Assembly: GCA_037783415.1 (NCBI GenBank)
Contig: JAZGTN010000026.1
Span: forward strand, 124,001 to 188,000
From: Leptasterias polaris
Taxonomy: Eukaryota; Echinodermata; Asteroidea; Forcipulatida; Asteriidae
Direction of reading: 5' to 3'
DNA: 64,000 bases
Numbering within the stretch: the stretch's first letter is position 1; each line of letters starts with the position of its first letter. Made by a program: the position numbers and the translations under genes. This document shows, in pieces, positions 8,800 through 30,209 of the stretch. The notes below the pieces were generated by a model that was not told the DNA's origin, did no database searches, and worked only from the letters and a program-made list of their open reading frames with translations.

Positions 8800-9895
8800 G
8801 CAACTGCAACTTTTATCCAACATTGTACATACGTCAAAAACGTTACATTGAAACAATTGTTACCGATTATAATGTTGGATCAACATTGATTTTAGGTTGT
8901 TATTATCGCAACGCAATTACAACCTTTATCCAACATTGTACATACTTCAATATTGTTACGTTAAAAAAAACCTTACCAGACTGACGTTGGATCAACATCG
9001 ATTTTAGGTTATTATTATCGCAACGCAAACAAAACCTTTTTACAACATTGTACATACGTCAAAAACGTTCACAATGAAACAACGTTACCAGAATAACGTT
9101 GGATCAACATTGATTTTAGGTTGTTATTATCGCGACGCAACAATAACCTTAATCCAACATTGCATTAACTTTTAAAAGTATACGTTTTGAAATGACGTTA
9201 CCCAACTGACATTGGATCAAAATTGATTTAAGGATTATCGCGACGCAATAACAACCTTTATCCAACATTGTTCATACGTAAAAATCATTACGTGGAAAAA
9301 ACGTTCCCAGAATGACGTTGGATCAACATTTATTTTAGGTTATTATTATCGCGACGCAATAACAACCTTTATCCAACATTGCACATAGGCCAAAAACGTT
9401 ACATTGAAACAACGTTACCAGAATGACGTTGGATCAACATTGATTTTAGGTTATTATTATCGCGACGCAATAACAACCTTTATCCAACATTGCACATAGG
9501 CCAAAAACATTACATTGAAACAACGTTACCAGAATGACGTTGGATCAACATTGATTTTAGGTTGTTATTATCGCGACGCAATAACAACCTTTATCCAACA
9601 TTGTACATACGTCAAAATCGTTACGTGGAAAAAACGTTACCAGAATGACGTTGGATCAACATCGATTTTAGGTTGTTATTATCGCGACGCAATAACAACC
9701 TTTATCCAACACTGTTCATACGTCAAAAACGTTACATTGAAACAACGTTACCAGAATGACGTTGGATCAACATTGATTTTAGGTTGTTATTATCGCGACG
9801 CAATAACAACCTTTATCCAACATTGCATCAACGTTAATTAGTATACGTTGAAACTACGTTGCCAAATTGACGTTGGATCAACATTGTTTTTTGGT
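8800..9895. repeat. 111-bp tandem repeat array, about ten units
   Basis: CAGAATGACGTTGGATCAAC recurs at 9308, 9419, 9530, 9641 and 9752, an exact 111-bp period. More diverged units extend to both sides. Each unit contains TTATTATCGCGACGCAATAA and ACATTG/AACGTT motifs. 111 is divisible by three, so a 108-codon frame at 9515-9841 stays open as an artefact of the array. Confidence 0.9.
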
Positions 9896-10071
9896 TGTTA
9901 TAATCGCAACGTTATTTCAACACTTTTCCAACGTTTACACAACGTCAAACTACAACTTAAAACAAACATCGCAAATGTGACGTTGAAATAACGTTGTTTT
10001 ATGGTATTTCGACGTTGTGACGCCATATCAACCAAAATTCAACGTTGAAATAACGTTGTGTGCCCACTGGG

Positions 10072-12243: not shown

Positions 12244-12249
12244 AGTTTG
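12244..12249 (+). repeat. left 6-bp target duplication AGTTTG of element 1
   Basis: AGTTTG immediately precedes the AGTAGTGTG terminus and is repeated exactly after the other terminus at 27210-27215. Confidence 0.9.
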
Positions 12250-12330
12250 AGTAGTGTGTTGGGTCTTGATGAGACAATCTATTGTTAGTTTATGCATGAT
12301 GCACAAGAACAATGGGGATTAAATGATTAA

Positions 12331-12658
12331 AATTAGCATAACAATGGAGGGTAGAAGTCTTGATGAGACAGAATTAGCATAACAAAGGAGGGGTATAAGT
12401 CTTGATGAGACAGAATTAGCATAATAATGGAGGGTAGAAGTCTTGATGAGACAGAATTAGCATAATAATGGAGGGTAGAAGTCTTGATGAGACAGAATTA
12501 GCATAATAATGGAGGGTAGAAGTCTTGATGAGACAGAATTAGCATAATAAAGGAGGGTAGAAGTCTTGATGAGACAGAATTATCATAATAATGGAGGGTA
12601 GAAGTCTTGATGAGACAGAATTAGCATAATAATGGAGGGAGAAGGCTTAATGAGACAG
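12331..12658 (+). repeat. terminal array, eight 41-bp repeats
   Basis: Eight head-to-tail units of about 41 bp, each with AATTAGCATAATAATGGAGG and TCTTGATGAGACAG. The phrase TCTTGATGAGACA also lies in the first 30 bp of the element, so the array appears to have grown from the terminus. Repeated terminal sites of this sort may bind a transposition or replication protein (inference). Confidence 0.93.
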
Positions 12659-12719
12659 TGTATTGATATATAATGTATGAGGCATAAATATGAGCATAGA
12701 TAAATGTTGATGAGGGTCA

Positions 12720-13145
12720 ACATGAGGTCGAGCGAAGGGGGACCAATGAGATTTGAAATGGGCCAATGAGAGAGGAGGGTTTGATAAGACAGAATATGTA
12801 TGAGATGATGAGAACAAAAGACAAGTCTAAATTTTTGATGAGACAGCTTTATGCGTGGGATGATTTGAAATGGGCCAATGAGAGAGGAGGGTGAGATTTG
12901 AAAATGGGGCAATGAGAGTGGAGGGGTATGATTTGAAATGGGGCAACAGAATATGTATGAGACGATGAGAACAAAAGACAAGTCTAAATTTTTGATGCGA
13001 CAGATTTATGCGTGGGATGATTTGAACAAAGAAAAGTGTAGAAGTCTTAATGAGACAGATGTATGTGTGGGATGATTTTAAATGGGCCATTAGAGTGGAG
13101 GGCATGATTTGAATTGGCCCAATGAGAGTGGAGGGCAAGTTTTGA
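12720..13145 (+). repeat. degenerate array of CCAAT-containing repeats
   Basis: Units around GATTTGAAATGGGCCAATGAGAGTGGAGG recur irregularly, mixed with pieces of the 41-bp unit such as GATGAGACAG. Most carry the core GGCCAATGAG, a good CCAAT (NF-Y-type) box in constant orientation. Long open frames on the minus strand here (12583-12981, 12827-13210) are translations of the repeat and not genes. Confidence 0.85.
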
Positions 13146-13216
13146 AATGGTGGGGAAAAAATAAATAAAATATAAATATATATATACCTATGGCGTATAT
13201 ATATATACACACATAT

Positions 13217-13688
13217 GTGACCTGCTCTATCGAAATGAAGATTGCCTCGGAAATCACGTTTACGTGTAATTCACCATTCAAAAGTTGTTAACAATCAAAA
13301 ATCTTGAAAAAACACTAAAAAACCGATTCTGCGATTTTGGTGGTATTAGGTTTAACAAAAAAACTTGATCTTTCTTGTCGTGGTCTTACCTTTAATTAAA
13401 AAGATGAATAAATCCACAAAAAGTATGTTTTCTTGAGCATGTTTGTACGCATAGCTACAAGTAGCTAGCTGTTGTTAATAACGATTATCTAAATAAACAC
13501 GTCGTAAAATAATGGAAGTGGCTTTGTCTTGTAGACTTTCTTCATTGCCTGATAACTTCGGACTGGAACAAGCTACATAAATAATAATGGTATTGTTGGA
13601 AAGCCTGTGAGTTACTTGTTAACATGGTATGTATAACTCAAATTTCAAAAATTTCCGAGACATTCCTCAATTCGATAGAGCAGGTCAC
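13217..13688. mobile_element. nested 472-bp inverted-repeat element
   Basis: The ends GTGACCTGCTCTATCGAA (13217) and TTCGATAGAGCAGGTCAC (to 13688) are perfect complements, and the similarity continues inward (CCTCGGAAAT against ATTTCCGAGA). It lies between short ATA-type simple repeats and has no coding potential. It is present in all four arms, so it entered an ancestral arm before the palindromes spread; in the left arm of element 2 its left end is lost. Confidence 0.85.
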
Positions 13689-13804
13689 AAATAATAATAA
13701 TAATAATAACAATAAATAAGCAAATGAATAAAATTACACAGATTTTGTTTGTTTATTACCCTTAGTAACAGACAGTGGATGAATCTCTTTTTTGACGATG
13801 TGGT

Positions 13805-13820
13805 GGCTCTTAAAAGAGCC
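13805..13820 (-). terminator. histone-type mRNA 3' stem-loop of gene A
   Basis: Read on the minus strand: GGCTCT, loop TTTA, AGAGCC, followed by ACCACA. This matches the metazoan replication-dependent histone stem-loop (6-bp stem, 4-base loop, ACCA-type tail). About 12 bases further lies the purine-rich AAAAAAGAGA, in the place of the histone downstream element that pairs with U7 snRNA. It begins 8 bases past the gene A stop codon. No AATAAA is needed in such a gene. Confidence 0.85.
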
Positions 13821-13827
13821 GGTTGTT

Positions 13828-14202
13828 TTATGTTGACGTGATCACCGTTGATTCAAACGTTGCAGTTTCTGGAGGCCATCTGTTCCTTCGGTGAAATATG
13901 CCTCCACCAAACGAGCTTTCTCTTGCCGCGTCAGTTGTGCCAAGTAGTTCAGGTATTTTTTCGTTTTTCACGAAGCGTGCCTGTTTCGTTGCCATCTCTA
14001 CCGTGATGAATTCCAACTCTTCGTCATAGTTGTTCGTCTTTGAGGCGATGTAAACCCGATGGAGCTCATTTACCTCCGCTCTTTTCTTCTCCAGAGAAAT
14101 TACCCCGTAATCAGTCTTGTTTTGCGGCACCATAAAAATATAATCTAAGTACTTGGTATTCATTTTAGCTTGGCAGCAGAGGGTAAATGATGTACAGTCC
14201 AT
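13828..14202 (-). CDS. gene A, small protein of unknown function
   Basis: First ATG at 14202, giving 124 codons in frame; the frame is open for 16 codons upstream but without another ATG. I do not recognise the protein. It is charged and helical in its first two thirds (LEKKRAEVNELHRV, EELEFITVEMATKQARF). At an A-rich stretch about 80 codons in, the +1 frame takes on a more protein-like, helix-forming composition (KYLNYLAQL, QEKARLVEAYF) and ends at 13842-13844, while frame zero turns Gly/Pro-rich. So either a one-base insertion in an A run or a +1 frameshift is suspected; all four copies share it. The gene is read toward the element end, lies between CCAAT-box repeats, and ends in a histone-type stem-loop. 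Together these suggest expression tied to S phase (inference). Confidence 0.6.
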   Translation of the reverse strand: MDCTSFTLCCQAKMNTKYLDYIFMVPQNKTDYGVISLEKKRAEVNELHRVYIASKTNNYDEELEFITVEMATKQARFVKNEKIPELLGTTDAARESSFGGGIFHRRNRWPPETATFESTVITST

Positions 14203-14409
14203 CGTGGCAGAATGATTAGAGACTACCGCTATGCCCACCGTAAGTAACTTTCACGTACACTGAAATTGACCATTGAGAGAGGAGGGTTTAATGAGAGGAG
14301 GGCATGATTTGAAATGGTCCAATGAGGTAGGGGGGCTTGATGAGACAAAATTCTGAATTGGGCCAATGAGAAGCGGGGGTTTGATAGGACAGAATTATGC
14401 ATAGTATTG

Positions 14410-14690
14410 TACCATCGAACAAAGTTCTAAAAGGCGACGCAGTCATGTAGTCGTCCTTGAAATGTATTTACACGGATTAAGAGAGTGGGGGAGGAACAAT
14501 ATATCCATATAGACGATGGTCTACGTGGGGGTAAAAGGCGACGCAGTCAGGTAGTCCTTGAAATGTATTTACACGGATTAAGATAGTTGGAGGTAAACAT
14601 AAGTGAACAAAAGGAATTTGGGAGGGGGTTGGGGAGGAACAATATATCCATATAGACGATGGTCTACGTGGGGATAAAAGGCGTCAACAA
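14410..14690. repeat. imperfect direct repeat around GTCTACGTGGGG
   Basis: Two copies of a block running from AAGGCGACGCAGTCA through CTTGAAATGTATTTACACGG to AACAATATATCCATATAGAC. The left arm of element 2 has only one copy, so this is a polymorphic duplication inside the arm. Confidence 0.75.
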
Positions 14691-14804
14691 AAGTTTAACT
14701 TATCCTCGAGGTAATGAATGAAAAAGAAAAAGGGTACAAAGGCAGCTCTAGACGTCTTAACGAGACAGGTTTATGCAAGATTAACCATCCCCCTTTAATC
14801 ATCG

Positions 14805-15072
14805 AGCCAATCGGAGCGTCGATTTGGCGTCCCTGACGATGATGTCACTTATTTTCAAATCAATTCGAGAGAAGCACAGCCAATCTGAGTCTCATATTTG
14901 GTGTCACTGACAATGATGCAATTTATTTTGAAAGCAGGTGGAGCGAGCACATCCAATAGGAGTCTCGCATTTTATATTTCAAACGATACCCTTTGTAAAA
15001 GTTTAAACTGGTGTGTATGTCTTGTAGCCAATCAGAATTTCTGATTTGGCGTCCTCCCGGTGCTAATATATA
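14805..15072 (+). promoter_or_regulatory. gene B promoter: four CCAAT boxes and TATA
   Basis: CCAAT boxes stand at 14807, 14880, 14953 and 15028, a spacing of 73, 73 and 75 bp. Sequence around them is a diverged repeat (CCAATC-GAG, then TTTGG-GTC, CTGAC-ATGATG). A TATATA box follows at 15067-15072, placing transcription start near 15097, about 105 bases before the gene B ATG. The TGATGTCA at 14840 resembles an ATF/CRE site. Multiple CCAAT boxes before TATA are also typical of histone promoters. Confidence 0.75.
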
Positions 15073-15201
15073 CCTACACAGGGACCACTCCTGTTACCAT
15101 TCTACGATTAAGTTCGATACTAATTTGACAGTTCCAGTTACATCGAGACTAAACCTTCATCATGTTTTTCATATTGTCTGACTTTATTTAGTACATTAAG
15201 C

Positions 15202-15411
15202 ATGTCAGAGTGCGAAGTACTTTTGGAATTCATGGAGTTGTCTGTGGAGCAAAGAGTAGCTCTTTCTCAGCGAATGTATCAGCTGTCGATCGATGAATCC
15301 GATTGTATTTATTTTTGTAAACAATTTATCGTTGGAGTAAAAACGATCCACCATAACTCTGTGTTACAAATAACGCATATATCACAGTCAATTCGATTCT
15401 TTAGAATCTAA
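15202..15411 (+). CDS. gene B, first copy, small protein (probably spliced)
   Basis: Begins MSECEVLLEF and reads 69 codons unspliced. The first 38 codons are acidic and helical (SVEQRVALSQRMYQLSIDE). A likely intron follows: donor GT at 15317 (TTTTT|GTAAAC), branch-like CTAAC near 15490, a T-rich tract and acceptor AG at 15535-15536. The acceptor exon completes the split codon in frame and encodes a short hydrophobic tail (NEFILIVW) before a stop in the last copy. The gene lies downstream of the CCAAT/TATA promoter. Family unknown. The unspliced C-terminus ending SIRFFRI is less convincing. Confidence 0.55.
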   Translation: MSECEVLLEFMELSVEQRVALSQRMYQLSIDESDCIYFCKQFIVGVKTIHHNSVLQITHISQSIRFFRI

Positions 15412-15597
15412 TATTTGGCTGTTACTTTTAGCAAATGAGAGACAAACATATTTCATTCTCAGCTTATTGAGATAAAAATGTACTCAAACTAACGAACTAT
15501 CATTGCACCCCAACATTTTCTCTTTTTTATTTTTAGGGGCGATCATTCGGATGAATGAATTCATCCTTATCGTTTGGTACACAATATTACATTAAGC

Positions 15598-15807
15598 ATG
15601 TCAGAGTGCGAAGTACTTTTGGAATTCATGGAGTTGTCTGTGGAGCAAAGAGTAGCTCTTTCTCAGCGAATGTATCAGCTGTCGATCGATGAATCCGATT
15701 GTATTTATTTTTGTAAACAATTTATCGTTGGAGTAAAAACGATCCACCATAACTCTGTGTTACAAATAACGCATATATCACAGTCAATTCGATTCTTTAG
15801 AATCTAA
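15598..15807 (+). CDS. gene B, second copy
   Basis: Identical in sequence to the copy 396 bp upstream, with its own donor and acceptor (acceptor AG ends at 15932). It lacks its own CCAAT/TATA promoter, so it would be read from the upstream one, with either acceptor usable. The open frame after it (15970-16197) has no ATG and follows an in-frame TGA, so it is more likely 3' untranslated sequence. Confidence 0.5.
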   Translation: MSECEVLLEFMELSVEQRVALSQRMYQLSIDESDCIYFCKQFIVGVKTIHHNSVLQITHISQSIRFFRI

Positions 15808-16419
15808 TATTTGGCTGTTACTTTTAGCAAATGAGAGACAAACATATTTCATTCTCAGCTTATTGAGATAAAAATGTACTCAAACTAACGAACTATCATT
15901 GCACCCCAACATTTTCTCTTTTTTATTTTTAGGGGCGATCATTCGGATGAATGAATTCATCCTTATCGTTTGGTACACAATACTAAACACAAACCTAATC
16001 CCTACAACAGTTTAAACAATTTAGATTGTTTCTTCTACAAGTTATCCAATAACCTTAACTGTCAACCGAGTCCATCTCAGGACTGTTTAGTTAAACATCA
16101 TTTAGCGTGGAAAATAAACTCACCAACATCAGATGGCGCGCATGAAAAACCAACACGTAACCGTAGCTCCATGTTTATAATGACGGCAGCATCTTAGTAC
16201 GTTCCTGAATCTCTATCAATATTATGTCATTATTTCCCACCGATACTTCTTACCCAAACTGATAATTATTAGAAAAATTATGCTTGATTTCGGCAGAACA
16301 GAAAAAACGCATTCGGACATTGTGCCATGATTTACACACACGCACACAATCGGTAGAGTTGTCACTTGCCTTTACCTGCAACATTGGACCTTATAACAAA
16401 TTTTGCCATTAGGCCTACG

Positions 16420-16611
16420 TCATGTACCGATTAGTGTTCCCCCACTATTTGGTAAAGGATTAAATTTGTCCAGTCGCCTACCTCTCACACATACAGTTTG
16501 TCCTTTAACAAGAAAGGGTCTATTTTGTACACGACAAGACCGTAGCTTCCAATGTTGATTGGAACTGACTGTTGAATGCTTATCGTTGTTAGAAGAAGAC
16601 AATATTTTCAT
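16420..16611 (-). CDS. gene D, 63-residue basic protein
   Basis: ATG-initiated frame of 63 codons, present in all four arms with one residue change (R to L in the left arm of element 2). It is Ser/Asn-rich at the N-terminus and basic in the middle (WKLRSCRVQNRPF, VCVRGRRLDKF). No family recognised. On its own strand it is preceded by the long T/G-rich tract with many TTTTTAG acceptor-like strings, so it could be a downstream exon of a transcript that starts further in. Coding status is uncertain. Confidence 0.35.
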   Translation of the reverse strand: MKILSSSNNDKHSTVSSNQHWKLRSCRVQNRPFLVKGQTVCVRGRRLDKFNPLPNSGGTLIGT

Positions 16612-16769
16612 TAAAAACAGTTATTTTCTGTAGTAAAAATGACCATGTCTTCATTCCGATTGAAAGACTTTTTTTTTTGCTAATACAAGATACATCAATG
16701 ACTTTAGAATTTTGTCCGATTTAACTAACAATGTTGATGAGACTTAATCATAATAATTTACTTAGTTTA

Positions 16770-17640
16770 GTTATAAACAGACTACAAACTGTAAACTACA
16801 AACTACAAACCAAAATATAAAAAACATACTAAAAACGTAAAAACTTCAGACTATAAACTACAAACTCCAAAACATACTAAATATAAACTAAAATACTAAA
16901 AACTGCAAACTACAAAATAAAAACTAAAAGAAAAACAAATACTAATCTCAAAATTTTAAAACTTACAAACTAAAAAAACTTAAAGCTTTAAACTACAAAC
17001 TACAAACTACAAACTAATATAATTTTTTTAAATTAAAATCTTAAAACTACATAACTACAAACTGAAAAAAAAAATACTGCAAATTGCAAACTGCAAACTA
17101 CGAACTACAAATCAAAAAAAAAATTGATAAATTAAAAACCGAAAAACTTCAGCATACAAACTACAAACTACAAAAATACATACTGAAAACTGCAAACTAC
17201 AAATAAATAAAAACTAGAAGAAAAAGTAATACTAAAACTTACAAACTAAAAAAACTAACAGTTTTAAACTACGTCCAAACCACAAACTGCTGCAAACTAC
17301 AGACTACAAACTAAAAAAGAAAACCATTACTAAAAACTGCAAACTACATAATAAAAACTAAAATAAAAAAGAAAACTAAACTCAAATCTTAAAAACTAAA
17401 AACCTATAAACTAAAAACTAAAAGAAAAAACATACTGAACTGGAAAACTAAAAACTTAAAAATTAACCAACTAAAAACTTAAGAACTACAATTAACATAA
17501 ATCTTTGTTTAAAACATATATATTAAAAACTTCAAGCTACAAAATAAAACATACAAGAAAAACGAAGACTAAACTCAAAACTTAAAAACTATTGCATAAG
17601 CCTAAAAACCTACTGAATCATAATATAAAAGATTTAGTAT
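16770..17640 (+). repeat. strand-asymmetric A/C-rich tract (CTACAAACTAAAAA)
   Basis: About 870 bp built from irregular ACTACAAACT, TAAAAACT and CAAACTGCAAACT phrases, with very little G on this strand. There is no fixed period, unlike a satellite. On the complement it is a run of TTTTTAGTTTGTAG, rich in 3'-splice-site-like strings. It is retained in all four arms. Confidence 0.85.
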
Positions 17641-18750
17641 CTGCATACTTGTTTTGAAACAGAAGTAAGCCAACTTTTACTGAACTTTTCAACTGATACA
17701 AAACATTATTAGGGGAGACAAGACAGGAATGCATACATTTGCATCACGCTTATACACCATGCACTTGAACTAAGTTTTACTCAAGACTATGAGTAAATGT
17801 TTGCGCTTTAAAATTCGATGAGTTACTCTTAAAGAAAATGTGAAAAATATAAAACATTTAAAAGCAATACAAACTGAAACAAATAAATACAAATTTACAA
17901 ACAAATAGTGGTAAAACAATAATTAGAAAAGAAACTGAGAAAAATGCACTAACACAACGAATCAATACTAGTCAACGACATGATGAGGAATGTGCAACTA
18001 ATACATCACATTATTATGACACAGCGCTAATTAGTTTCTGTACAAAGACATCGATGCAGTCCAAAACAATCGCAGACAAGAGTGCAGACACTTAGAAACC
18101 TCTTATAAATAAGACTGACAAATTCACTATTAAATCACAAACGATATAAAAGAAAAAAAAATGTAATCGAGCTAAAATAAAACATTAATTACGAACAAAT
18201 GTTATCGTAATCAAAAAAATTAATTTCAAAATTACAACTAAAATCTAATAAATCTTAAAATACAAACTAAAAACTAAAAGAAAACAATACTTAACTCCAA
18301 ACCTACAAACTTCAATACCCACTAAAAACAAACAAACTAACACATGCATAATACTTTGAAACAAAAGTAAGATGACACTTACTAAACTTTATACTGAAAC
18401 TTTTCAACTGATACAAAACACTATTAGGCCCCCTATGGAAGACAACAAACGATTACAAGTATATGCATACGTTTACACCTGACATCTACATGTACTTGCA
18501 CCCCACTATACCTTTATTACAGACATGCGCTTTAAAATTCGATAAGCAACTCTTAAAAGTAATGTAGACAATTTATAATTATAATAACAGCAAAACAAGA
18601 ACGAAACAAATAATATATGGAATCATTGAACAAAATGTACAATACTGCAAAGACCACGGAAGAGTGTAGGAGGAGCTGACTTTTCCCCGTAACTGAGCAA
18701 TGAGGTATTATTTTAAGTGAGCAGCGAGGCCATGACTGAGAAATGAGTAC
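17641..18750. other. A-rich arm segment, no gene seen
   Basis: A-rich sequence with two related landmarks, TTTTCAACTGATACAAAACA followed by TATTAGG (17684 and 18402) and GCGCTTTAAAATTCGAT (17804 and 18528), indicating an old internal duplication of roughly 720 bp. No coding frame is supported. Confidence 0.5.
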
Positions 18751-18758
18751 AAATTTGA

Positions 18759-19013
18759 GTGAGCAGGTCACGAAGTGACGATCATGCAGCGACGGACAAG
18801 TGGTATTGTAGTGTGCGCGTACGTAATCGTTCAAGACGCAAGGAGCGTCTTGAAAGAGCCCCAAACTCAATGATTCAAGACATCCTTAACGGATGGAAAG
18901 AGGATCCAGAGGACGTTGCTCGTCTTTTTTATTCAACGGTTTTTGATGACTTGTCCAAACTGATTGACTCCACGATCAAACAACTGAATGAATACAATCA
19001 TAGTTTGTGTTAA
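18759..19013 (+). CDS. gene E, small basic-to-acidic protein, start uncertain
   Basis: Open frame of 84 codons from just after a stop at 18756. The first ATG is only at 18870 (47 codons), so either the short form is made or the 5' part is an exon reached by splicing (GAGCAG precedes 18767). The N-terminal part is basic (RVRNRSRRKERLERAP); the rest is an amphipathic acidic helix region (GWKEDPEDVARLFYSTVFDDL). Family not recognised. It runs tail to tail with gene G and has AATAAA at 19076-19081. Small upstream ATG-stop pairs (near 18692, 18731, 18743) might dampen translation. The opposite-strand frame over it is treated as a shadow. Confidence 0.5.
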   Translation: MSRSRSDDHAATDKWYCSVRVRNRSRRKERLERAPNSMIQDILNGWKEDPEDVARLFYSTVFDDLSKLIDSTIKQLNEYNHSLC

Positions 19014-19075
19014 AAGTAATATTACATAACTGTTCATCCTTTATTATTCAATTTATACTTACGTGCATGGTTTTC

Positions 19076-19135
19076 AATAAAGGTAAAAAAGTTAAATTAT
19101 GTATTGATTTGTTATCCAATCATTCTGTGTTTATT
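19076..19135. terminator. back-to-back polyadenylation signals of genes E and G
   Basis: AATAAA for gene E (19076-19081, plus) and AATAAA for gene G (complement at 19130-19135, minus) face each other about 50 bp apart, so predicted cleavage sites nearly abut. Such compact convergent ends suggest two real transcription units. Confidence 0.65.
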
Positions 19136-19276
19136 ATCCGTATGTTGTTAAATTTAACTTAAAATATAATTATTTAAGTGAATAAAGAGACACAAATAAA
19201 AAGACGACGCGGGTGCCTAAATACTAACCGGATGTCATCAGAATTCCTTGAGTGGTCAACGGGCAAAGGATCATTT

Positions 19277-19432
19277 TCAACTGTGTGTGGACAGTATGTC
19301 ACCTTCTTTCCCATTCTCCGCTGTATCCGCCGTAAACAAGTGTTTAATTTTAGCCATGGACAGGTCCGAGAGTTTTTTGTCACGAAATTTAACAAAAGCC
19401 AAACATTTGTAAGGAATGTTTGTGTGGATCAT
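19277..19432 (-). CDS. gene G, 51-residue protein
   Basis: ATG at 19432 is the first ATG after the predicted transcription start below a TATA box at 19493-19486. The 51-codon frame contains AFVKFRDKKLSDLSMAKIKH, with a lysine-rich, helix-like centre, and ends ILSTHS. Frames on the opposite strand (19178-19495) and in the neighbouring frame (19174-19395) are longer but sit awkwardly against promoter and poly(A) signals. Family unknown; a spliced continuation cannot be excluded. Confidence 0.45.
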   Translation of the reverse strand: MIHTNIPYKCLAFVKFRDKKLSDLSMAKIKHLFTADTAENGKEGDILSTHS

Positions 19433-19485
19433 TATATTCTACTTTTAAAACATCTTTTTCAACCGTGTTCATTTCATATCAAACG

Positions 19486-19510
19486 CCTTTTATAGCCCAA
19501 AGCGTCCAAT
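19486..19510 (-). promoter_or_regulatory. gene G promoter, CCAAT and TATA
   Basis: On the minus strand ATTGG (an inverted CCAAT at 19506-19510) is followed 12 bases later by TATAAAAGG (19494-19486). With its mirror copy across the loop it forms a divergent promoter pair at the heart of the palindrome. Confidence 0.7.
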
Positions 19511-19686
19511 CCGAAGGCAACGTGTACCTTTAAGTTTTCCGTTTTTTAGATTTTAAGTTTTTAAGTTTTATTTTTATTTTTTATTTTTCATTTTATTTTT
19601 ATTTTTTTATCCCGGGGATAACATTTTATTTCTCTCTTATTAACTTACATTAACATAGTAAAGAGAACAAATGAAACATCTTATAT

Positions 19687-19773
19687 TACAGTAAATAATA
19701 AGAATTAAACTGGTTACAGTAGGTTATTCACAGAGTACATAATACTTATTCCATTTCGAATTAAATTTCTGAT
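19687..19773 (+). other. unique 87-bp loop of palindrome 1
   Basis: The only sequence of element 1 without a mirror image; begins TACAGTAAATAATAAG and ends AAATTTCTGAT. The adjoining inner arm ends differ slightly (CCCGGGGAT left, CCCGTGAT right; TATTAAC against TATCAAC), marking an A side (left) and a B side (right). No gene or known motif. Confidence 0.9.
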
Positions 19774-19948
19774 ATATAAGATGTTTCATTTGTTCTCTTT
19801 ACTATGTTAATGTAAGTTGATAAGAGAGAAATAAAATGTTATCACGGGATAAAAATTAAAAAAATAAATGAAAAATAAAAAATAAAAATAAAACTTAAAA
19901 ACTTAAAATCTAAAAAACGGAAAACTTAAAGGTACACGTTGCCTTCGG

Positions 19949-19973
19949 ATTGGACGCTTTGGGCTATAAAAGG
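19949..19973 (+). promoter_or_regulatory. gene G promoter (right arm, element 1)
   Basis: Mirror of the left-arm promoter: ATTGG at 19949-19953, then TATAAAAGG from 19966. Directs transcription away from the loop. Confidence 0.7.
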
Positions 19974-20026
19974 CGTTTGATATGAAATGAACACGGTTGA
20001 AAAAGATGTTTTAAAAGTAGAATATA

Positions 20027-20182
20027 ATGATCCACACAAACATTCCTTACAAATGTTTGGCTTTTGTTAAATTTCGTGACAAAAAACTCTCGGACCTGTC
20101 CATGGCTAAAATTAAACACTTGTTTACGGCGGATACAGCGGAGAATGGGAAAGAAGGTGACATACTGTCCACACACAGTTGA
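20027..20182 (+). CDS. gene G, right arm of element 1
   Basis: Same 51-codon frame as at 19277-19432, no difference seen. An earlier ATG (19987) lies only about 20 bases past TATA, probably before the transcription start, and opens a 27-codon frame. Confidence 0.45.
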   Translation: MIHTNIPYKCLAFVKFRDKKLSDLSMAKIKHLFTADTAENGKEGDILSTHS

Positions 20183-20323
20183 AAATGATCCTTTGCCCGT
20201 TGACCACTCAAGGAATTCTGATGACATCCGGTTAGTATTTAGGCACCCGCGTCGTCTTTTTATTTGTGTCTCTTTATTCACTTAAATAATTATATTTTAA
20301 GTTAAATTTAACAACATACGGAT

Positions 20324-20383
20324 AATAAACACAGAATGATTGGATAACAAATCAATACATAATTTAACTTTTTTACCTTTATT
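20324..20383. terminator. convergent poly(A) signals (right arm, element 1)
   Basis: AATAAA at 20324-20329 for gene G and its complement at 20378-20383 for gene E. Confidence 0.65.
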
Positions 20384-20445
20384 GAAAACCATGCACGTAA
20401 GTATAAATTGAATAATAAAGGATGAACAGTTATGTAATATTACTT

Positions 20446-20700
20446 TTAACACAAACTATGATTGTATTCATTCAGTTGTTTGATCGTGGAGTCAATCAGT
20501 TTGGACAAGTCATCAAAAACCGTTGAATAAAAAAGACGAGCAACGTCCTCTGGATCCTCTTTCCATCCGTTAAGGATGTCTTGAATCATTGAGTTTGGGG
20601 CTCTTTCAAGACGCTCCTTGCGTCTTGAACGATTACGTACGCGCACACTACAATACCACTTGTCCGTCGCTGCATGATCGTCACTTCGTGACCTGCTCAC
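20446..20700 (-). CDS. gene E, right arm of element 1
   Basis: Mirror copy with identical 84-codon open frame; first ATG at 20589, as in the left arm. Confidence 0.5.
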   Translation of the reverse strand: MSRSRSDDHAATDKWYCSVRVRNRSRRKERLERAPNSMIQDILNGWKEDPEDVARLFYSTVFDDLSKLIDSTIKQLNEYNHSLC

Positions 20701-21818
20701 TCAAATTTGTACTCATTTCTCAGTCATGGCCTCGCTGCTCACTTAAAATAATACCTCATTGCTCAGTTACGGGGAAAAGTCAGCTCCTCCTACACTCTTC
20801 CGTGGTCTTTGCAGTATTGTACATTTTGTTCAATGATTCCATATATTATTTGTTTCGTTCTTGTTTTGCTGTTATTATAATTATAAATTGTCTACATTAC
20901 TTTTAAGAGTTGCTTATCGAATTTTAAAGCGCATGTCTGTAATAAAGGTATAGTGGGGTGCAAGTACATGTAGATGTCAGGTGTAAACGTATGCATATAC
21001 TTGTAATCGTTTGTTGTCTTCCATAGGGGGCCTAATAGTGTTTTGTATCAGTTGAAAAGTTTCAGTATAAAGTTTAGTAAGTGTCATCTTACTTTTGTTT
21101 CAAAGTATTATGCATGTGTTAGTTTGTTTGTTTTTAGTGGGTATTGAAGTTTGTAGGTTTGGAGTTAAGTATTGTTTTCTTTTAGTTTTTAGTTTGTATT
21201 TTAAGATTTATTAGATTTTAGTTGTAATTTTGAAATTAATTTTTTTGATTACGATAACATTTGTTCGTAATTAATGTTTTATTTTAGCTCGATTACATTT
21301 TTTTTTCTTTTATATCGTTTGTGATTTAATAGTGAATTTGTCAGTCTTATTTATAAGAGGTTTCTAAGTGTCTGCACTCTTGTCTGCGATTGTTTTGGAC
21401 TGCATCGATGTCTTTGTACAGAAACTAATTAGCGCTGTGTCATAATAATGTGATGTATTAGTTGCACATTCCTCATCATGTCGTTGACTAGTATTGATTC
21501 GTTGTGTTAGTGCATTTTTCTCAGTTTCTTTTCTAATTATTGTTTTACCACTATTTGTTTGTAAATTTGTATTTATTTGTTTCAGTTTGTATTGCTTTTA
21601 AATGTTTTATATTTTTCACATTTTCTTTAAGAGTAACTCATCGAATTTTAAAGCGCAAACATTTACTCATAGTCTTGAGTAAAACTTAGTTCAAGTGCAT
21701 GGTGTATAAGCGTGATGCAAATGTATGCATTCCTGTCTTGTCTCCCCTAATAATGTTTTGTATCAGTTGAAAAGTTCAGTAAAAGTTGGCTTACTTCTGT
21801 TTCAAAACAAGTATGCAG

Positions 21819-22689
21819 ATACTAAATCTTTTATATTATGATTCAGTAGGTTTTTAGGCTTATGCAATAGTTTTTAAGTTTTGAGTTTAGTCTTCGTTTT
21901 TCTTGTATGTTTTATTTTGTAGCTTGAAGTTTTTAATATATATGTTTTAAACAAAGATTTATGTTAATTGTAGTTCTTAAGTTTTTAGTTGGTTAATTTT
22001 TAAGTTTTTAGTTTTCCAGTTCAGTATGTTTTTTCTTTTAGTTTTTAGTTTATAGGTTTTTAGTTTTTAAGATTTGAGTTTAGTTTTCTTTTTTATTTTA
22101 GTTTTTATTATGTAGTTTGCAGTTTTTAGTAATGGTTTTCTTTTTTAGTTTGTAGTCTGTAGTTTGCAGCAGTTTGTGGTTTGGACGTAGTTTAAAACTG
22201 TTAGTTTTTTTAGTTTGTAAGTTTTAGTATTACTTTTTCTTCTAGTTTTTATTTATTTGTAGTTTGCAGTTTTCAGTATGTATTTTTGTAGTTTGTAGTT
22301 TGTATGCTGAAGTTTTTCGGTTTTTAATTTATCAATTTTTTTTTTGATTTGTAGTTCGTAGTTTGCAGTTTGCAATTTGCAGTATTTTTTTTTTCAGTTT
22401 GTAGTTATGTAGTTTTAAGATTTTAATTTAAAAAAATTATATTAGTTTGTAGTTTGTAGTTTGTAGTTTAAAGCTTTAAGTTTTTTTAGTTTGTAAGTTT
22501 TAAAATTTTGAGATTAGTATTTGTTTTTCTTTTAGTTTTTATTTTGTAGTTTGCAGTTTTTAGTATTTTAGTTTATATTTAGTATGTTTTGGAGTTTGTA
22601 GTTTATAGTCTGAAGTTTTTACGTTTTTAGTATGTTTTTTATATTTTGGTTTGTAGTTTGTAGTTTACAGTTTGTAGTCTGTTTATAAC
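21819..22689 (-). repeat. asymmetric tract, right arm of element 1 (T/G-rich on plus)
   Basis: Mirror of the left-arm A/C-rich tract; reads as TTTTTAGTTTGTAGTTTGCAG phrases on the plus strand, directly upstream of gene D. Confidence 0.85.
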
Positions 22690-22847
22690 TAAACTAAGTA
22701 AATTATTATGATTAAGTCTCATCAACATTGTTAGTTAAATCGGACAAAATTCTAAAGTCATTGATGTATCTTGTATTAGCAAAAAAAAAAGTCTTTCAAT
22801 CGGAATGAAGACATGGTCATTTTTACTACAGAAAATAACTGTTTTTA

Positions 22848-23039
22848 ATGAAAATATTGTCTTCTTCTAACAACGATAAGCATTCAACAGTCAGTTCCAA
22901 TCAACATTGGAAGCTACGGTCTTGTCGTGTACAAAATAGACCCTTTCTTGTTAAAGGACAAACTGTATGTGTGAGAGGTAGGCGACTGGACAAATTTAAT
23001 CCTTTACCAAATAGTGGGGGAACACTAATCGGTACATGA
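22848..23039 (+). CDS. gene D, right arm of element 1
   Basis: Identical 63-codon frame. CAG|GTAAAG at 23080-23088, just past the stop, resembles a splice donor, so the transcript may continue. Confidence 0.35.
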   Translation: MKILSSSNNDKHSTVSSNQHWKLRSCRVQNRPFLVKGQTVCVRGRRLDKFNPLPNSGGTLIGT

Positions 23040-23651
23040 CGTAGGCCTAATGGCAAAATTTGTTATAAGGTCCAATGTTGCAGGTAAAGGCAAGTGACAA
23101 CTCTACCGATTGTGTGCGTGTGTGTAAATCATGGCACAATGTCCGAATGCGTTTTTTCTGTTCTGCCGAAATCAAGCATAATTTTTCTAATAATTATCAG
23201 TTTGGGTAAGAAGTATCGGTGGGAAATAATGACATAATATTGATAGAGATTCAGGAACGTACTAAGATGCTGCCGTCATTATAAACATGGAGCTACGGTT
23301 ACGTGTTGGTTTTTCATGCGCGCCATCTGATGTTGGTGAGTTTATTTTCCACGCTAAATGATGTTTAACTAAACAGTCCTGAGATGGACTCGGTTGACAG
23401 TTAAGGTTATTGGATAACTTGTAGAAGAAACAATCTAAATTGTTTAAACTGTTGTAGGGATTAGGTTTGTGTTTAGTATTGTGTACCAAACGATAAGGAT
23501 GAATTCATTCATCCGAATGATCGCCCCTAAAAATAAAAAAGAGAAAATGTTGGGGTGCAATGATAGTTCGTTAGTTTGAGTACATTTTTATCTCAATAAG
23601 CTGAGAATGAAATATGTTTGTCTCTCATTTGCTAAAAGTAACAGCCAAATA

Positions 23652-23861
23652 TTAGATTCTAAAGAATCGAATTGACTGTGATATATGCGTTATTTGTAAC
23701 ACAGAGTTATGGTGGATCGTTTTTACTCCAACGATAAATTGTTTACAAAAATAAATACAATCGGATTCATCGATCGACAGCTGATACATTCGCTGAGAAA
23801 GAGCTACTCTTTGCTCCACAGACAACTCCATGAATTCCAAAAGTACTTCGCACTCTGACAT
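23652..23861 (-). CDS. gene B, distal copy (right arm, element 1)
   Basis: Identical to the left-arm copies, with the same predicted intron signals. Confidence 0.5.
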   Translation of the reverse strand: MSECEVLLEFMELSVEQRVALSQRMYQLSIDESDCIYFCKQFIVGVKTIHHNSVLQITHISQSIRFFRI

Positions 23862-24047
23862 GCTTAATGTAATATTGTGTACCAAACGATAAGGATGAAT
23901 TCATTCATCCGAATGATCGCCCCTAAAAATAAAAAAGAGAAAATGTTGGGGTGCAATGATAGTTCGTTAGTTTGAGTACATTTTTATCTCAATAAGCTGA
24001 GAATGAAATATGTTTGTCTCTCATTTGCTAAAAGTAACAGCCAAATA

Positions 24048-24257
24048 TTAGATTCTAAAGAATCGAATTGACTGTGATATATGCGTTATTTGTAACACAG
24101 AGTTATGGTGGATCGTTTTTACTCCAACGATAAATTGTTTACAAAAATAAATACAATCGGATTCATCGATCGACAGCTGATACATTCGCTGAGAAAGAGC
24201 TACTCTTTGCTCCACAGACAACTCCATGAATTCCAAAAGTACTTCGCACTCTGACAT
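24048..24257 (-). CDS. gene B, promoter-proximal copy (right arm, element 1)
   Basis: Identical to the left-arm copy; lies about 130 bases from the TATA box at 24387-24392. Confidence 0.55.
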   Translation of the reverse strand: MSECEVLLEFMELSVEQRVALSQRMYQLSIDESDCIYFCKQFIVGVKTIHHNSVLQITHISQSIRFFRI

Positions 24258-24386
24258 GCTTAATGTACTAAATAAAGTCAGACAATATGAAAAACATGAT
24301 GAAGGTTTAGTCTCGATGTAACTGGAACTGTCAAATTAGTATCGAACTTAATCGTAGAATGGTAACAGGAGTGGTCCCTGTGTAGG

Positions 24387-24654
24387 TATATATTAGCACC
24401 GGGAGGACGCCAAATCAGAAATTCTGATTGGCTACAAGACATACACACCAGTTTAAACTTTTACAAAGGGTATCGTTTGAAATATAAAATGCGAGACTCC
24501 TATTGGATGTGCTCGCTCCACCTGCTTTCAAAATAAATTGCATCATTGTCAGTGACACCAAATATGAGACTCAGATTGGCTGTGCTTCTCTCGAATTGAT
24601 TTGAAAATAAGTGACATCATCGTCAGGGACGCCAAATCGACGCTCCGATTGGCT
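24387..24654 (-). promoter_or_regulatory. gene B promoter (right arm, element 1)
   Basis: Mirror of 14805-15072 with the four CCAAT boxes and TATATA conserved. Confidence 0.75.
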
Positions 24655-25256
24655 CGATGATTAAAGGGGGATGGTTAATCTTGCATAAACCTGTCTCGTT
24701 AAGACGTCTAGAGCTGCCTTTGTACCCTTTTTCTTTTTCATTCATTACCTCGAGGATAAGTTAAACTTTTGTTGACGCCTTTTATCCCCACGTAGACCAT
24801 CGTCTATATGGATATATTGTTCCTCCCCAACCCCCTCCCAAATTCCTTTTGTTCACTTATGTTTACCTCCAACTATCTTAATCCGTGTAAATACATTTCA
24901 AGGACTACCTGACTGCGTCGCCTTTTACCCCCACGTAGACCATCGTCTATATGGATATATTGTTCCTCCCCCACTCTCTTAATCCGTGTAAATACATTTC
25001 AAGGACGACTACATGACTGCGTCGCCTTTTAGAACTTTGTTCGATGGTACAATACTATGCATAATTCTGTCCTATCAAACCCCCGCTTCTCATTGGCCCA
25101 ATTCAGAATTTTGTCTCATCAAGCCCCCCTACCTCATTGGACCATTTCAAATCATGCCCTCCTCTCATTAAACCCTCCTCTCTCAATGGTCAATTTCAGT
25201 GTACGTGAAAGTTACTTACGGTGGGCATAGCGGTAGTCTCTAATCATTCTGCCACG

Positions 25257-25631
25257 ATGGACTGTACATCATTTACCCTCTGCTGCCAAGCTAAAATGAA
25301 TACCAAGTACTTAGATTATATTTTTATGGTGCCGCAAAACAAGACTGATTACGGGGTAATTTCTCTGGAGAAGAAAAGAGCGGAGGTAAATGAGCTCCAT
25401 CGGGTTTACATCGCCTCAAAGACGAACAACTATGACGAAGAGTTGGAATTCATCACGGTAGAGATGGCAACGAAACAGGCACGCTTCGTGAAAAACGAAA
25501 AAATACCTGAACTACTTGGCACAACTGACGCGGCAAGAGAAAGCTCGTTTGGTGGAGGCATATTTCACCGAAGGAACAGATGGCCTCCAGAAACTGCAAC
25601 GTTTGAATCAACGGTGATCACGTCAACATAA
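25257..25631 (+). CDS. gene A, right arm of element 1
   Basis: Identical frame of 124 codons from ATG 25257. The suspected frame switch lies in the A-rich stretch at about 25490-25505; the alternative frame ends at 25615-25617 and the zero frame at 25629-25631. Confidence 0.6.
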   Translation: MDCTSFTLCCQAKMNTKYLDYIFMVPQNKTDYGVISLEKKRAEVNELHRVYIASKTNNYDEELEFITVEMATKQARFVKNEKIPELLGTTDAARESSFGGGIFHRRNRWPPETATFESTVITST

Positions 25632-25638
25632 AACAACC

Positions 25639-25654
25639 GGCTCTTTTAAGAGCC
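25639..25654 (+). terminator. histone-type 3' stem-loop (right arm, element 1)
   Basis: GGCTCT-TTTA-AGAGCC followed by ACCACA and, from 25666, AAAAAAGAGA. Confidence 0.85.
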
Positions 25655-25770
25655 ACCACATCGTCAAAAAAGAGATTCATCCACTGTCTGTTACTAAGGG
25701 TAATAAACAAACAAAATCTGTGTAATTTTATTCATTTGCTTATTTATTGTTATTATTATTATTATTATTT

Positions 25771-26242
25771 GTGACCTGCTCTATCGAATTGAGGAATGTC
25801 TCGGAAATTTTTGAAATTTGAGTTATACATACCATGTTAACAAGTAACTCACAGGCTTTCCAACAATACCATTATTATTTATGTAGCTTGTTCCAGTCCG
25901 AAGTTATCAGGCAATGAAGAAAGTCTACAAGACAAAGCCACTTCCATTATTTTACGACGTGTTTATTTAGATAATCGTTATTAACAACAGCTAGCTACTT
26001 GTAGCTATGCGTACAAACATGCTCAAGAAAACATACTTTTTGTGGATTTATTCATCTTTTTAATTAAAGGTAAGACCACGACAAGAAAGATCAAGTTTTT
26101 TTGTTAAACCTAATACCACCAAAATCGCAGAATCGGTTTTTTAGTGTTTTTTCAAGATTTTTGATTGTTAACAACTTTTGAATGGTGAATTACACGTAAA
26201 CGTGATTTCCGAGGCAATCTTCATTTCGATAGAGCAGGTCAC
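25771..26242. mobile_element. nested 472-bp inverted-repeat element (right arm, element 1)
   Basis: Mirror copy with both GTGACCTGCTCTATCGAA-type ends intact. Confidence 0.85.
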
Positions 26243-26313
26243 ATATGTGTGTATATATATATACGCCATAGGTATATATATATTTATATTTTATTTATTT
26301 TTTCCCCACCATT

Positions 26314-26739
26314 TCAAAACTTGCCCTCCACTCTCATTGGGCCAATTCAAATCATGCCCTCCACTCTAATGGCCCATTTAAAATCATCCCACACATACAT
26401 CTGTCTCATTAAGACTTCTACACTTTTCTTTGTTCAAATCATCCCACGCATAAATCTGTCGCATCAAAAATTTAGACTTGTCTTTTGTTCTCATCGTCTC
26501 ATACATATTCTGTTGCCCCATTTCAAATCATACCCCTCCACTCTCATTGCCCCATTTTCAAATCTCACCCTCCTCTCTCATTGGCCCATTTCAAATCATC
26601 CCACGCATAAAGCTGTCTCATCAAAAATTTAGACTTGTCTTTTGTTCTCATCATCTCATACATATTCTGTCTTATCAAACCCTCCTCTCTCATTGGCCCA
26701 TTTCAAATCTCATTGGTCCCCCTTCGCTCGACCTCATGT
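26314..26739 (-). repeat. CCAAT-containing repeats (right arm, element 1)
   Basis: Mirror of 12720-13145; open frames along it on the plus strand are repeat artefacts. Confidence 0.85.
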
Positions 26740-26800
26740 TGACCCTCATCAACATTTATCTATGCTCATATTTATGCCTCATACATTATATATCAATACA

Positions 26801-27128
26801 CTGTCTCATTAAGCCTTCTCCCTCCATTATTATGCTAATTCTGTCTCATCAAGACTTCTACCCTCCATTATTATGATAATTCTGTCTCATCAAGACTTCT
26901 ACCCTCCTTTATTATGCTAATTCTGTCTCATCAAGACTTCTACCCTCCATTATTATGCTAATTCTGTCTCATCAAGACTTCTACCCTCCATTATTATGCT
27001 AATTCTGTCTCATCAAGACTTCTACCCTCCATTATTATGCTAATTCTGTCTCATCAAGACTTCTACCCCTCCTTTGTTATGCTAATTCTGTCTCATCAAG
27101 ACTTCTACCCTCCATTGTTATGCTAATT
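26801..27128 (-). repeat. terminal 41-bp array, eight units (right arm, element 1)
   Basis: Same unit number as the left arm, with one substitution difference noted. Confidence 0.93.
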
Positions 27129-27209
27129 TTAATCATTTAATCCCCATTGTTCTTGTGCATCATGCATAAACTAACAATAGATTGTCTCATCAAGACCCAA
27201 CACACTACT

Positions 27210-27215
27210 AGTTTG
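27210..27215 (+). repeat. right 6-bp target duplication AGTTTG of element 1
   Basis: Exact repeat of 12244-12249 directly after the CACACTACT terminus. Confidence 0.9.
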
Positions 27216-28951
27216 CCCATGGATTCTAAGCGTGTAGAGGGTTTAATATTGTTTGAGTTGGGCTAATACCATTATGAGTATGCACTTAAAATTGAATGTG
27301 CTCAAATAATATGCAAACCCATGTCTGCCGCATGCACGTAATTGAGAATATCTCACCGTTTGCTAATCCTTAGCTTTAGTGCAACATGGTTCAGCCGCAA
27401 TATATAAGGCCAACATCAGTATCATATATCATTCCAGTCACGTCGTATTAATCTCTTTGCATCTTCGGTTAACCGAGGAGGAACATTCCTTGCAATACAT
27501 TATAGGTATTAGTAGATGAAACTAAAGTGAAATACAACTGAATGGCTTCAAAACTATAGCAAACAAGTCCATCCGTACCGCAGAACGCTGGGTGTAAATC
27601 GTATAGTTTTTCAGAACGTAATGAAACGACAAGCTGCAACCGTAATACTAGAAGTTAATGCTAAAGAAGACAAATAACGCTTTCTGTTGATTTTATCTTG
27701 CCTAAATTAATCTTGCTTAAAAGCGCGCGGAGGCCAGCATTTGTAATTGTTAACCTTGTAAACCCTTATACACACATGGGTCTCATAACTCAAAACCTTC
27801 TTCAAGACGCCCGTAGATAAAGCGCTGTATAAACTAGTCATTATTATTAACGTTGGTTTGTGAATTTATAAAAAACAAAATGCTTCATCAGGTTGTATTT
27901 CCTTACATTTATACGCGAAAATGGGGGCACGGTACACATTTTCAGAGCAACTGAAAAAGTGTTATTATCAAGGTTTTGAGATGCAAGTCTCACAAAAATT
28001 GAAATATGTGCATGGTTAATACCTATTTTGGAAAGGTTAAGATATTTCTTTTGAAAGATGTCATGGTATTTTACAAAGAGATCCGTGTTTAAAGACAAAT
28101 TCAAATTATATATCCGTTTTTATGAAAAAGAAAATGTCATTCAGTACCGGAGACCAGAAGCTCACAAAAATGAAGACAACATGAAACGTCCAAAACGAAG
28201 GCAACATTTTGCTATAAATAAAAGGATGCAACTTTGCAACAATATAGAGGGAGACTTGTGCCATCTGAATGTAATCAAGTGTTTTGAAACTTGTAACTGC
28301 ATTATCTTTTGTAAATACTTCAATATGCAATAAGAGTTATCACAATTCGCTAACCACCATTTGACGGCTACAGTTATCAATATCAATTTTTTGACGATGG
28401 TCTGAGTCACCATAAACCCAAAACATTACACAATAAAGCATTGGAATATAATCAACGAAAGAAATAGTTCTGATCAGTTTTACAGTTTTCAAAAACACTT
28501 TCACTTACACTTTTAAGTGATTTTTTCCGCTGTCATTTTGAATTTATTTTGCTTCGTTTGGTTCCCAGTAAGCAGAAGCATGAAATTGGGACCTCGGGGC
28601 CTCAACTTCATGAGGTCGCCAAGATCAGCTGATGGTTTTACGACCAATCATGTCCTATATGAGTTTTTCCTGTATAAACTGTCAGCTATGTGCACAAATT
28701 ATACTTTCCTATGCTTTGCAGCTGTGTTTTATCAACTTAATATACACCTTCAAGCGTAGGGGAATTCTCGCTACCTTGAGAAACATGCAACATTCAGCAT
28801 GAATCGATTGTAGGTGAGACACAATTTCCGGGGGGACATTTTCTGATAACTGTTGTGTGTTTGAATTGGGCGTGGTATGCGGATGTACGTTTACTTACCC
28901 AGAATGTCATTTAGTCATATTACAGCACATCGTAGTCCTGGCTATATTGCA
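27216..28951. other. spacer between the two palindromes
   Basis: No gene supported. A TATA-like ATATATAAGG at 27399 precedes no convincing frame. GATAAAGCGCTGTATAAACT followed by ATTATTATT (27816-27850) resembles the 3' tail of a CR1-type LINE or a SINE. Overlapping frames on both strands at 27847-28413 have no recognisable motif. Confidence 0.4.
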
Positions 28952-29129
28952 TTAAAGGGGCTGCGTCGTCATGAATGTACATGAAATTACGAATTCTCAC
29001 CCAGTTACTACACCCCACCCCCCCGTATCATATGGAGAGCACACAGGCACGTGTAGTAACTGGGTGAGAGTTCATAGCTTCATGTCGAGCAATAGGCCCG
29101 CTTCGATCATGACGACACAGCACTTTTAA
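28952..29129. mobile_element. 178-bp MITE with GCTGCGTCGTCATGA ends
   Basis: The left end TTAAAGGGGCTGCGTCGTCATGA and right end TCATGACGACACAGC...TTTTAA are imperfect inverted repeats, with a second inverted pair inside (CTCACCCAGTTACTAC and GTAGTAACTGGGTGAG). TTAA-like ends suggest a TTAA-targeting family. A half copy of the same family lies near 47.8 kb. Confidence 0.7.
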
Positions 29130-30122
29130 CAATAACAACTATTGTGCTTACAGTCCTACAAAATACTGTAACGCAGATAAACTGGCTTCATTTTGCTTTA
29201 ACTTCTCTGGATTGTGGACTCGAATCTAAGCGTGTAAGCAGTGGAGTGTGGTCTCTAGGTCACGACGACTGAACGAAAATGAGCATTGAAACTACGAGTG
29301 GTCGATTTTTTATTTACTGGTGACTTTATGGCAACACAATGTACAGAAAGGTGCTGGACCTAGCTCGTGGGTATAGGACTGGTGCAAGTCTCGCGCGTTC
29401 TTCAACATTGGGACCACTTAAAGTTTGCGAGATTGTGTCCTTCATGCGTTAAAGCAATGTACGTGGAACCAAAGTGTTCCACAAATGTACAAATACGCGC
29501 GAGACTTGCACGGTGTACTTAAGAAGCGAGTTATTTGCACCAAGGCAGGAATGAATGTTGAAGGCGTACGTGTAAAAGTGAGAAGTAAAAGGTGTACACA
29601 CATAGTAATACGAATTTGATGGTGGATGCCGAAGCATCGATTTGGCAATGATGTCACACAGAAATAACATAAGTAATGATGACATCATTTCCAAGAACAA
29701 GGTTTGGTGACGTCATTGCTGTGCGACCGTAGTGGTCAACAGGAGAGTTCATTAGAGACAAGCCTTAAAATGTCCATTTCAGACTATACATGTTAACATG
29801 CAGAATTATTAGGGAAGATTGAATTGGATGTAGAATCATCCGGACAATACCAAACTATTAAAAACAATTAAAAACTAAACAAGCCGCTGCAATTTTGTTG
29901 ACTCCCTCTGCTGCATTAACTTGTCTGTGATGTGCATTACTTAATTTATCCATACACTCATTATAGGTTCATTGTCAGCTCGCTAAGATCAGAAGGTGGT
30001 AGCTTTTACCTAACATAGGCAGTTTAATGTGGATTCAATAGATCGGTCCATTCTATAAATTCACGGACAGAATGTCTACAATTCCGGGCCAAAAAGTCAA
30101 TTACTTTGTGGTCCAAAGCAAT
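29130..30122. other. intergenic, nothing recognised
   Basis: No repeat boundary or gene seen; the frames at 29425-29700 overlap on both strands. Confidence 0.4.
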
Positions 30123-30128
30123 TGCGTC
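30123..30128 (+). repeat. left 6-bp target duplication TGCGTC of element 2
   Basis: TGCGTC directly precedes AGTAGTGTG and is repeated exactly at 44044-44049. Confidence 0.9.
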
Positions 30129-30209
30129 AGTAGTGTGTTGGGTCTTGATGAGACAATCTATTGTTAGTTTATGCATGATGCACAAGAACAATGGGGATTA
30201 AATGATTAA

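Follow-up and report, generated by a model that had tools for sequence, protein, structure and literature searches.

A long palindromic element with Maverick/Polinton-type ends at two loci of the sea star Leptasterias polaris

The described systems closest to the element reported here are the Mavericks/Polintons. According to the available portions of a survey in vertebrates, the commonest end motif of Mavericks is 5'-(AGT)2//(ACT)2-3', their target duplications are 6 bp long, and intact copies measure 12,723-24,620 bp with inverted repeats of 46-1,447 bp (PMC8097293). The same portions connect jumping back during protein-primed replication with the doubled end motif, and interpret the narrow size range as a constrained genome size (PMC8097293). 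We analysed a stretch of 64,000 nucleotides from the sea star Leptasterias polaris (GenBank assembly GCA_037783415.1, contig JAZGTN010000026.1, positions 124,001 to 188,000 of the forward strand; hereafter the window, whose own numbering is used throughout) and found in it two copies of a long palindromic element: E1, a palindrome of 14,960 bp at 12250-27209, and E2, a near-palindrome of 13,915 bp at 30129-44043 whose loop is oriented opposite to that of E1, neither copy being assigned to a strand. Both resemble the surveyed Mavericks: all four ends carry (AGT)2//(ACT)2, each of the two copies has a 6-bp target duplication, inverted terminal repeats are present, and both lengths lie inside the vertebrate range. 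They differ in that the E1 arms, at 7.4 kb, make up the entire element and are about 5 times as long as the longest inverted repeat in that survey (1,447 bp). Furthermore, no polymerase, integrase, ATPase, protease or capsid gene was recognised in the scanned frames of E1, and both copies carry a histone-type 3' end. The explanation that we prefer, and hold to be probable, is that E1 and E2 are non-autonomous, snapback-type palindromes with Maverick/Polinton ends, which would use the protein-primed polymerase and the integrase of a helper Maverick whose presence we infer.

Self-comparison bore out the initial annotation of this DNA, which had described a palindrome of about 15 kb with 7.4-kb arms and an 87-bp loop. 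E1 matched its own reverse complement with 99.58% identity over 14,967 alignment columns. The left arm occupies 12250-19686 (+ strand, 7437 bp) and begins with the terminus (AGT)2GTGTTGGG, the right arm occupies 19774-27209 (- strand, 7436 bp), and the loop between them (19687-19773, + strand, 87 bp) is mostly not self-complementary. Only 8 substitutions in 7,436 aligned columns and 1 gapped column separated the two arms; seven of the eight fell in the loop-proximal bin and the remaining one at 12396. The constant coordinate sum of 39459 that had been noted earlier holds for the outer arms; near the loop, a 1-base indel shifts it to 39460. When folded, a strand of E1 forms a single long stem around the loop, and its 341-nt centre reached -117.9 kcal/mol; 100 shuffles averaged -25.5 kcal/mol, and none of them (0/100) folded as well. 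An inverted repeat of 7.4 kb cannot have arisen by chance.

Within the window, AGTAGTGTGTTGGG or its complement occurred four times, at both ends of E1 and at both ends of E2, and a 27-base version of the terminus, with up to 5 mismatches allowed, was found at the same four places only. All four element ends belong to the pair AGTAGTGTGTTGGG...CCCAACACACTACT, that is AGTAGT...ACTACT. E1 is flanked by AGTTTG at 12244-12249 and 27210-27215, and E2 by TGCGTC at 30123-30128 and 44044-44049 (all given on the + strand). Both duplications are perfect, and the chance of finding both is about 6e-8 as a simple product. The target duplication claimed for E1 in the initial annotation was thus confirmed as a perfect 6-bp repeat, and its proposal of a 15-kb palindromic mobile element is supported. 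E2, which was absent from that annotation, has the same termini with its own 6-bp duplication and strengthens the proposal. Since the duplications bracket the complete palindrome, each site was apparently entered by one double-ended molecule. Taken together, the end motif and the 6-bp duplication point to Mavericks.

The loop gave a second line of evidence. We aligned E1, E2 and the reverse complement of each, and obtained 252 ungapped columns with substitutions, in which mirrored sites entered on both sides. In 51 of these, E1 agreed with the reverse complement of E2 and differed from E2 as it stands; the opposite pattern was found in 0. Forty-six of the 51 columns lay in the loop, whose counterpart in E2 is flipped and lies at about 36521-36607, and the other five lay beside it (19603, 19616, 19641, 19819 and 19844). 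Both copies therefore have the loop and the differences beside it in common, and E2 is inserted in the reverse direction. Because these differences are shared in flipped orientation, the palindrome most likely travelled as a single unit. The common asymmetry of the loop also disfavours the view that the assembler or host repair formed each palindrome independently.

Long palindromes are difficult to sequence, according to the available text of one report (PMC4057610), and the arms of E1 are nearly identical, so the mirror image could be thought to come from foldback-chimeric reads or a collapsed repeat in the assembly. However, a foldback should yield identical arms and no target duplication. 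We found two loci whose elements have identical outer ends but are bordered by perfect 6-bp duplications of different sequence, and an oriented loop common to both copies in flipped form. Between the left and right arms of E2, moreover, there are 113 substitutions and large indels. We regard an assembly artefact as very unlikely. Still less credible, in our view, is that half an element was inserted and later duplicated in inverted orientation by host repair, through a template switch or breakage-fusion. Foldback priming at double-strand breaks makes inverted duplications and, as far as the accessible part of the source goes, is a studied process (PMC10622511). However, the target duplications stand at the outer ends of the whole palindrome in both copies, and the differences in the loop and its flanks are common to both; the arm duplication therefore seems older than the transposition. 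Gene conversion between E1 and E2 could mimic the common loop, but not the target duplications.

The four arms were not equally alike. The E2 right arm (36608-44043, - strand) differed from the E1 left arm by 4 substitutions in 7,436 columns, and three of the four arms were nearly identical, with 4, 6 and 8 substitutions in about 7436. The E2 left arm (30129-36520, + strand) was divergent: compared with the E1 left arm it had 115 substitutions in 6,369 columns and 1,091 gapped columns. Its divergence was patchy, being dense over the outer 1.4 kb, while 7 of 15 bins of 500 bases held no substitutions. It also has a single 396-bp unit where the other three arms carry a tandem pair. In the E1 left arm this pair is an exact tandem duplication of 2 copies (15192-15982, + strand), with an open reading frame (ORF) of 69 amino acids present twice, and it is repeated in the right arms of E1 (23477-24267) and E2 (40311-41101). 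We infer that the E2 left arm belongs to another lineage and was acquired through recombination. A contraction of the repeat after insertion would cover part of the divergence, but hardly the patchy substitutions. The two copies, in opposite loop orientation, are separated by 2,919 bp only (27210-30128); their proximity may reflect local reinsertion or a preference for certain targets. An imperfect hairpin of 107 bp, 70% self-complementary, was seen between them at 28979-29085.

In the initial annotation each arm was credited with at least four candidate small genes and a full gene set. The full set was unsupported, since Pfam, PHROGs and protein searches gave no matches, and of the small genes one ORF with a well supported mRNA 3' end was left, the others being short frames for which the searches made found no homologues. 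The Pfam scan was of the E1 left arm and took in its stop-to-stop frames with a minimum length of 60 codons (n=17). None of the 17 matched Pfam at the cutoff, the top raw E value being 0.012 over a 12-residue stretch; there was no match to a protein-primed DNA polymerase B or an integrase, and none to a capsid, packaging ATPase or protease. Transposases, including those of the Mutator-like element (MULE) or Foldback/Galileo type, likewise had no Pfam match in this arm. The right arms of E1 and E2 have nearly the same sequence as the scanned one. The longest open frame has 147 codons and is therefore too short for a complete Maverick polymerase or integrase. For three ORFs no homologues were found in a set of 5.8 billion proteins, a search for relatives among viral contigs found none, and exact-pattern scans of viral contigs gave 0 occurrences of the terminus and 0 of the 41-bp repeat described below. 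PHROGs, run on 10 frames, gave best E values of 0.058 and 0.095. ARAGORN found no transfer RNA, and a match of the arm to a microRNA family was weak (30.6 against a cutoff of 81). Given that the scanned frames hold no recognised core genes, E1 cannot be classed as an autonomous Maverick.

The lack of recognised core genes also fits an ordinary Maverick in decay, a remnant that would have lost its genes and have no active helper cycle, the palindrome being a rare by-product with no independent existence. The ambiguous frame of the main ORF agrees with such decay, and old copies could have stayed similar through local gene conversion. However, the near-identity over 7.4 kb in three of the four arms suggests that the palindrome moved recently, and we consider a remnant of this kind rather unlikely.

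The main ORF stands next to a 3'-end signal. A stem-loop of the histone-type 3' untranslated region (RF00032), followed by a purine-rich stretch, lies at 13779-13825 (- strand) with its mirror at 25634-25680; its score was 40.5 bits (cutoff 34; E 1.7e-8). Rfam found it in all four arms, those of E2 having it at 31142-31188 (- strand, left arm) and 42468-42514 (+ strand, right arm). Just ahead of it in E1 stops an orphan ORF of 124 amino acids (13828-14202, - strand), and an overlapping frame of 41 codons (13845-13967) likewise stops there. The small ORF with its stem-loop is the one small gene having real support, with a putative coding frame, and to judge from this signal it probably gives rise to an mRNA that is not polyadenylated and is linked to S phase. 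For a mobile element to employ a histone-type mRNA 3' end would be unusual. As to what the ORF may encode, a histone was considered and rejected: a pattern resembling H2B by eye had no Pfam match and was no better than shuffles. Local alignments of both ORF pieces with H2A, H2B, H3 and H4 gave p values of 0.23-0.77 (1000 shuffles). Searching the PDB by sequence with a piece of 83 residues returned 0 matches, and the AlphaFold2 model made from the single sequence of an 82-residue piece was unusable (mean predicted local distance difference test score, pLDDT, 41.7). Elsewhere in the E1 left arm there is an orphan open frame of 84 codons (18759-19010, + strand), with an AATAAA seen by eye at about 19076.

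Under the preferred explanation, two enzymes of a helper Maverick, a protein-primed polymerase and an integrase of retroviral type, would act on the ends. The palindrome would have been born once, by a snapback or copy-back event in which the polymerase, while replicating one end of a linear genome, changed over to the complementary strand close to where the loop now lies. Such a product would be of packageable length and have the same end twice, hence two origins. After displacement, a single strand could fold into a 7.4-kb hairpin and so restore a double-stranded end from which the next round of protein-primed synthesis would start; mismatch repair in the hairpin could hold the arms identical save beside the loop. 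The element would integrate as a linear double-ended molecule, and its size of about 15 kb would be retained owing to packaging. A more specific form of this idea, which we put forward only tentatively, is a self-complementary polintovirus satellite: a packageable whole-genome palindrome that the helper Maverick replicates, packages and integrates, with an orphan gene in both arms whose expression is tied to S phase through the histone mRNA 3'-end pathway of the host. Palindromic derivatives that depend on a helper are characteristic of a virus population that replicates. If the explanation is true, Maverick-ended palindromes at two loci would be indirect evidence for extrachromosomal, protein-primed Maverick replication with satellites in this host, and the packaging-size limits and hairpin-primed replication of Mavericks would become testable.

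Several observations weigh against this explanation. The loop-adjacent clustering of arm differences expected from hairpin repair is seen in E1 but not in E2. Between the two arms of E2 there are 113 substitutions and 1,090 gapped columns, so homogenisation of the arms is not obligatory, and the near-perfect identity of the E1 arms could in part reflect assembly collapse. With a spacing of 2,919 bp, gene conversion between E1 and E2 could have spread the loop or raised their likeness. The main ORF, a candidate coding sequence only, can be read in either of two overlapping frames, and it has no homologue. The Pfam result applies to frames of the E1 left arm with a minimum of 60 codons, and core genes, if decayed, might persist as shorter fragments. 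No helper or parental Maverick was found, without a search of the sea-star genome, so the tie to Mavericks comes from the ends and not from the arms, and the reference figures for Maverick length and end motif are those of vertebrates. Finally, the IS256/MuDR elements have duplications of 4-10 bp in the accessible part of a comparative account (PMC10045372); this range spans 6 bp, and the length of the duplication alone therefore leaves a MULE in play.

Other repeats were found inside the element and around it. A subterminal 41-bp tandem repeat has 8 copies at 12331-12658 (+ strand; mirror 26801-27128) and 5.5 copies in E2 at 30210-30437. A degenerate A-rich tract of 7-bp units (ACAAACT/ACTAAAA) extends over 16777-17591 (+ strand). 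CCAAT boxes in the arm were at chance level (18 against 16.7 expected), whereas the longer word CCAATGAG was enriched (6 against 0.22), an excess that may stem from the repeats themselves. An octamer-like TTATGCATGAT was observed at 12290-12300, 41-51 bp from the terminus; adenovirus has an Oct-1 site near the corresponding position. Outside the elements, the window contains a 111-bp tandem repeat of about 10 copies with 83% matches (8807-9949) and a hexamer array of TGTTGC/TGTCGC/TGTCGT (4919-5227) that is open in several frames. An open frame at 4118-4414 recalls by eye the end of a non-LTR (long terminal repeat) retrotransposon reverse transcriptase, with no Pfam match at E 0.01. Among the frames of at least 95 codons outside the elements, 10 of 16 were scanned and had no Pfam match at E 0.01; the other 6 lie in tandem repeats.

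The comparison can be extended to other mobile elements. LTR retrotransposons and retroviruses have TG..CA ends and direct long terminal repeats; a derivative of these was rejected, the ends here being AGT..ACT and the repeats inverted. TU elements have very long inverted repeats with internal repeats. Foldback, Galileo and TU elements end differently, and their target duplications are typically longer, as are most of those of MULEs. Long, internally repetitive inverted repeats are given as the hallmark of Galileo, which resembles Foldback, in the part of the source at hand (PMC3573991). E1 and E2 share with Foldback, Galileo and TU elements very long inverted repeats with internal ones, here subterminal tandem repeats, and this counts in favour of an element of Foldback/Galileo, MULE, IS3EU/GingerRoot or unknown type with giant inverted repeats that is no Maverick. 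A 6-bp duplication also occurs in IS3EU and GingerRoot and falls within the IS256/MuDR range; however, the ends of IS3EU and GingerRoot are given in the same account as TA..TA or occasionally TG..CA (PMC10045372), unlike the AGT..ACT of E1 and E2. Moreover, a doubled AGT with a 6-bp duplication is the signature published for Mavericks, at least in the vertebrate survey (PMC8097293). An origin outside the Mavericks is unlikely on this evidence.

Palindromes are also made by protein-primed linear replicons, namely the inverted dimers of linear plasmids and symmetric adenovirus genomes, and these are not known to be integrated mobile elements. Adeno-associated virus (AAV) is a single-stranded virus and is not protein-primed. 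Its snapback genomes replicate when Rep and adenovirus helper functions are given, in the portion of the work available (PMC8235507). They resemble what we propose for E1 and E2 in being palindromic derivatives of one moiety of a viral genome that replicate with helper functions (PMC8235507), and differ in being packaged subgenomic particles, while E1 and E2 are known only as two inserted copies. AAV snapback genomes are a working analogue and not a relative. The initial annotation had held that the element is not a described class. This did not stand for the ends and the target duplication, which are of Maverick/Polinton type; the fully palindromic, gene-poor architecture was not found described in the open-access literature, most subscription journals lying outside that search, so that its absence from print is not shown. 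The terms 'nonautonomous polinton', 'non-autonomous polinton' and 'non-autonomous maverick' had 0 occurrences in 20 of the 22 open-access papers that matched at least two related terms, a count that would miss a paper with the last of these phrases as its sole match. Seen beside these systems, E1 and E2 look like a new architecture within a known kind, the Mavericks/Polintons.

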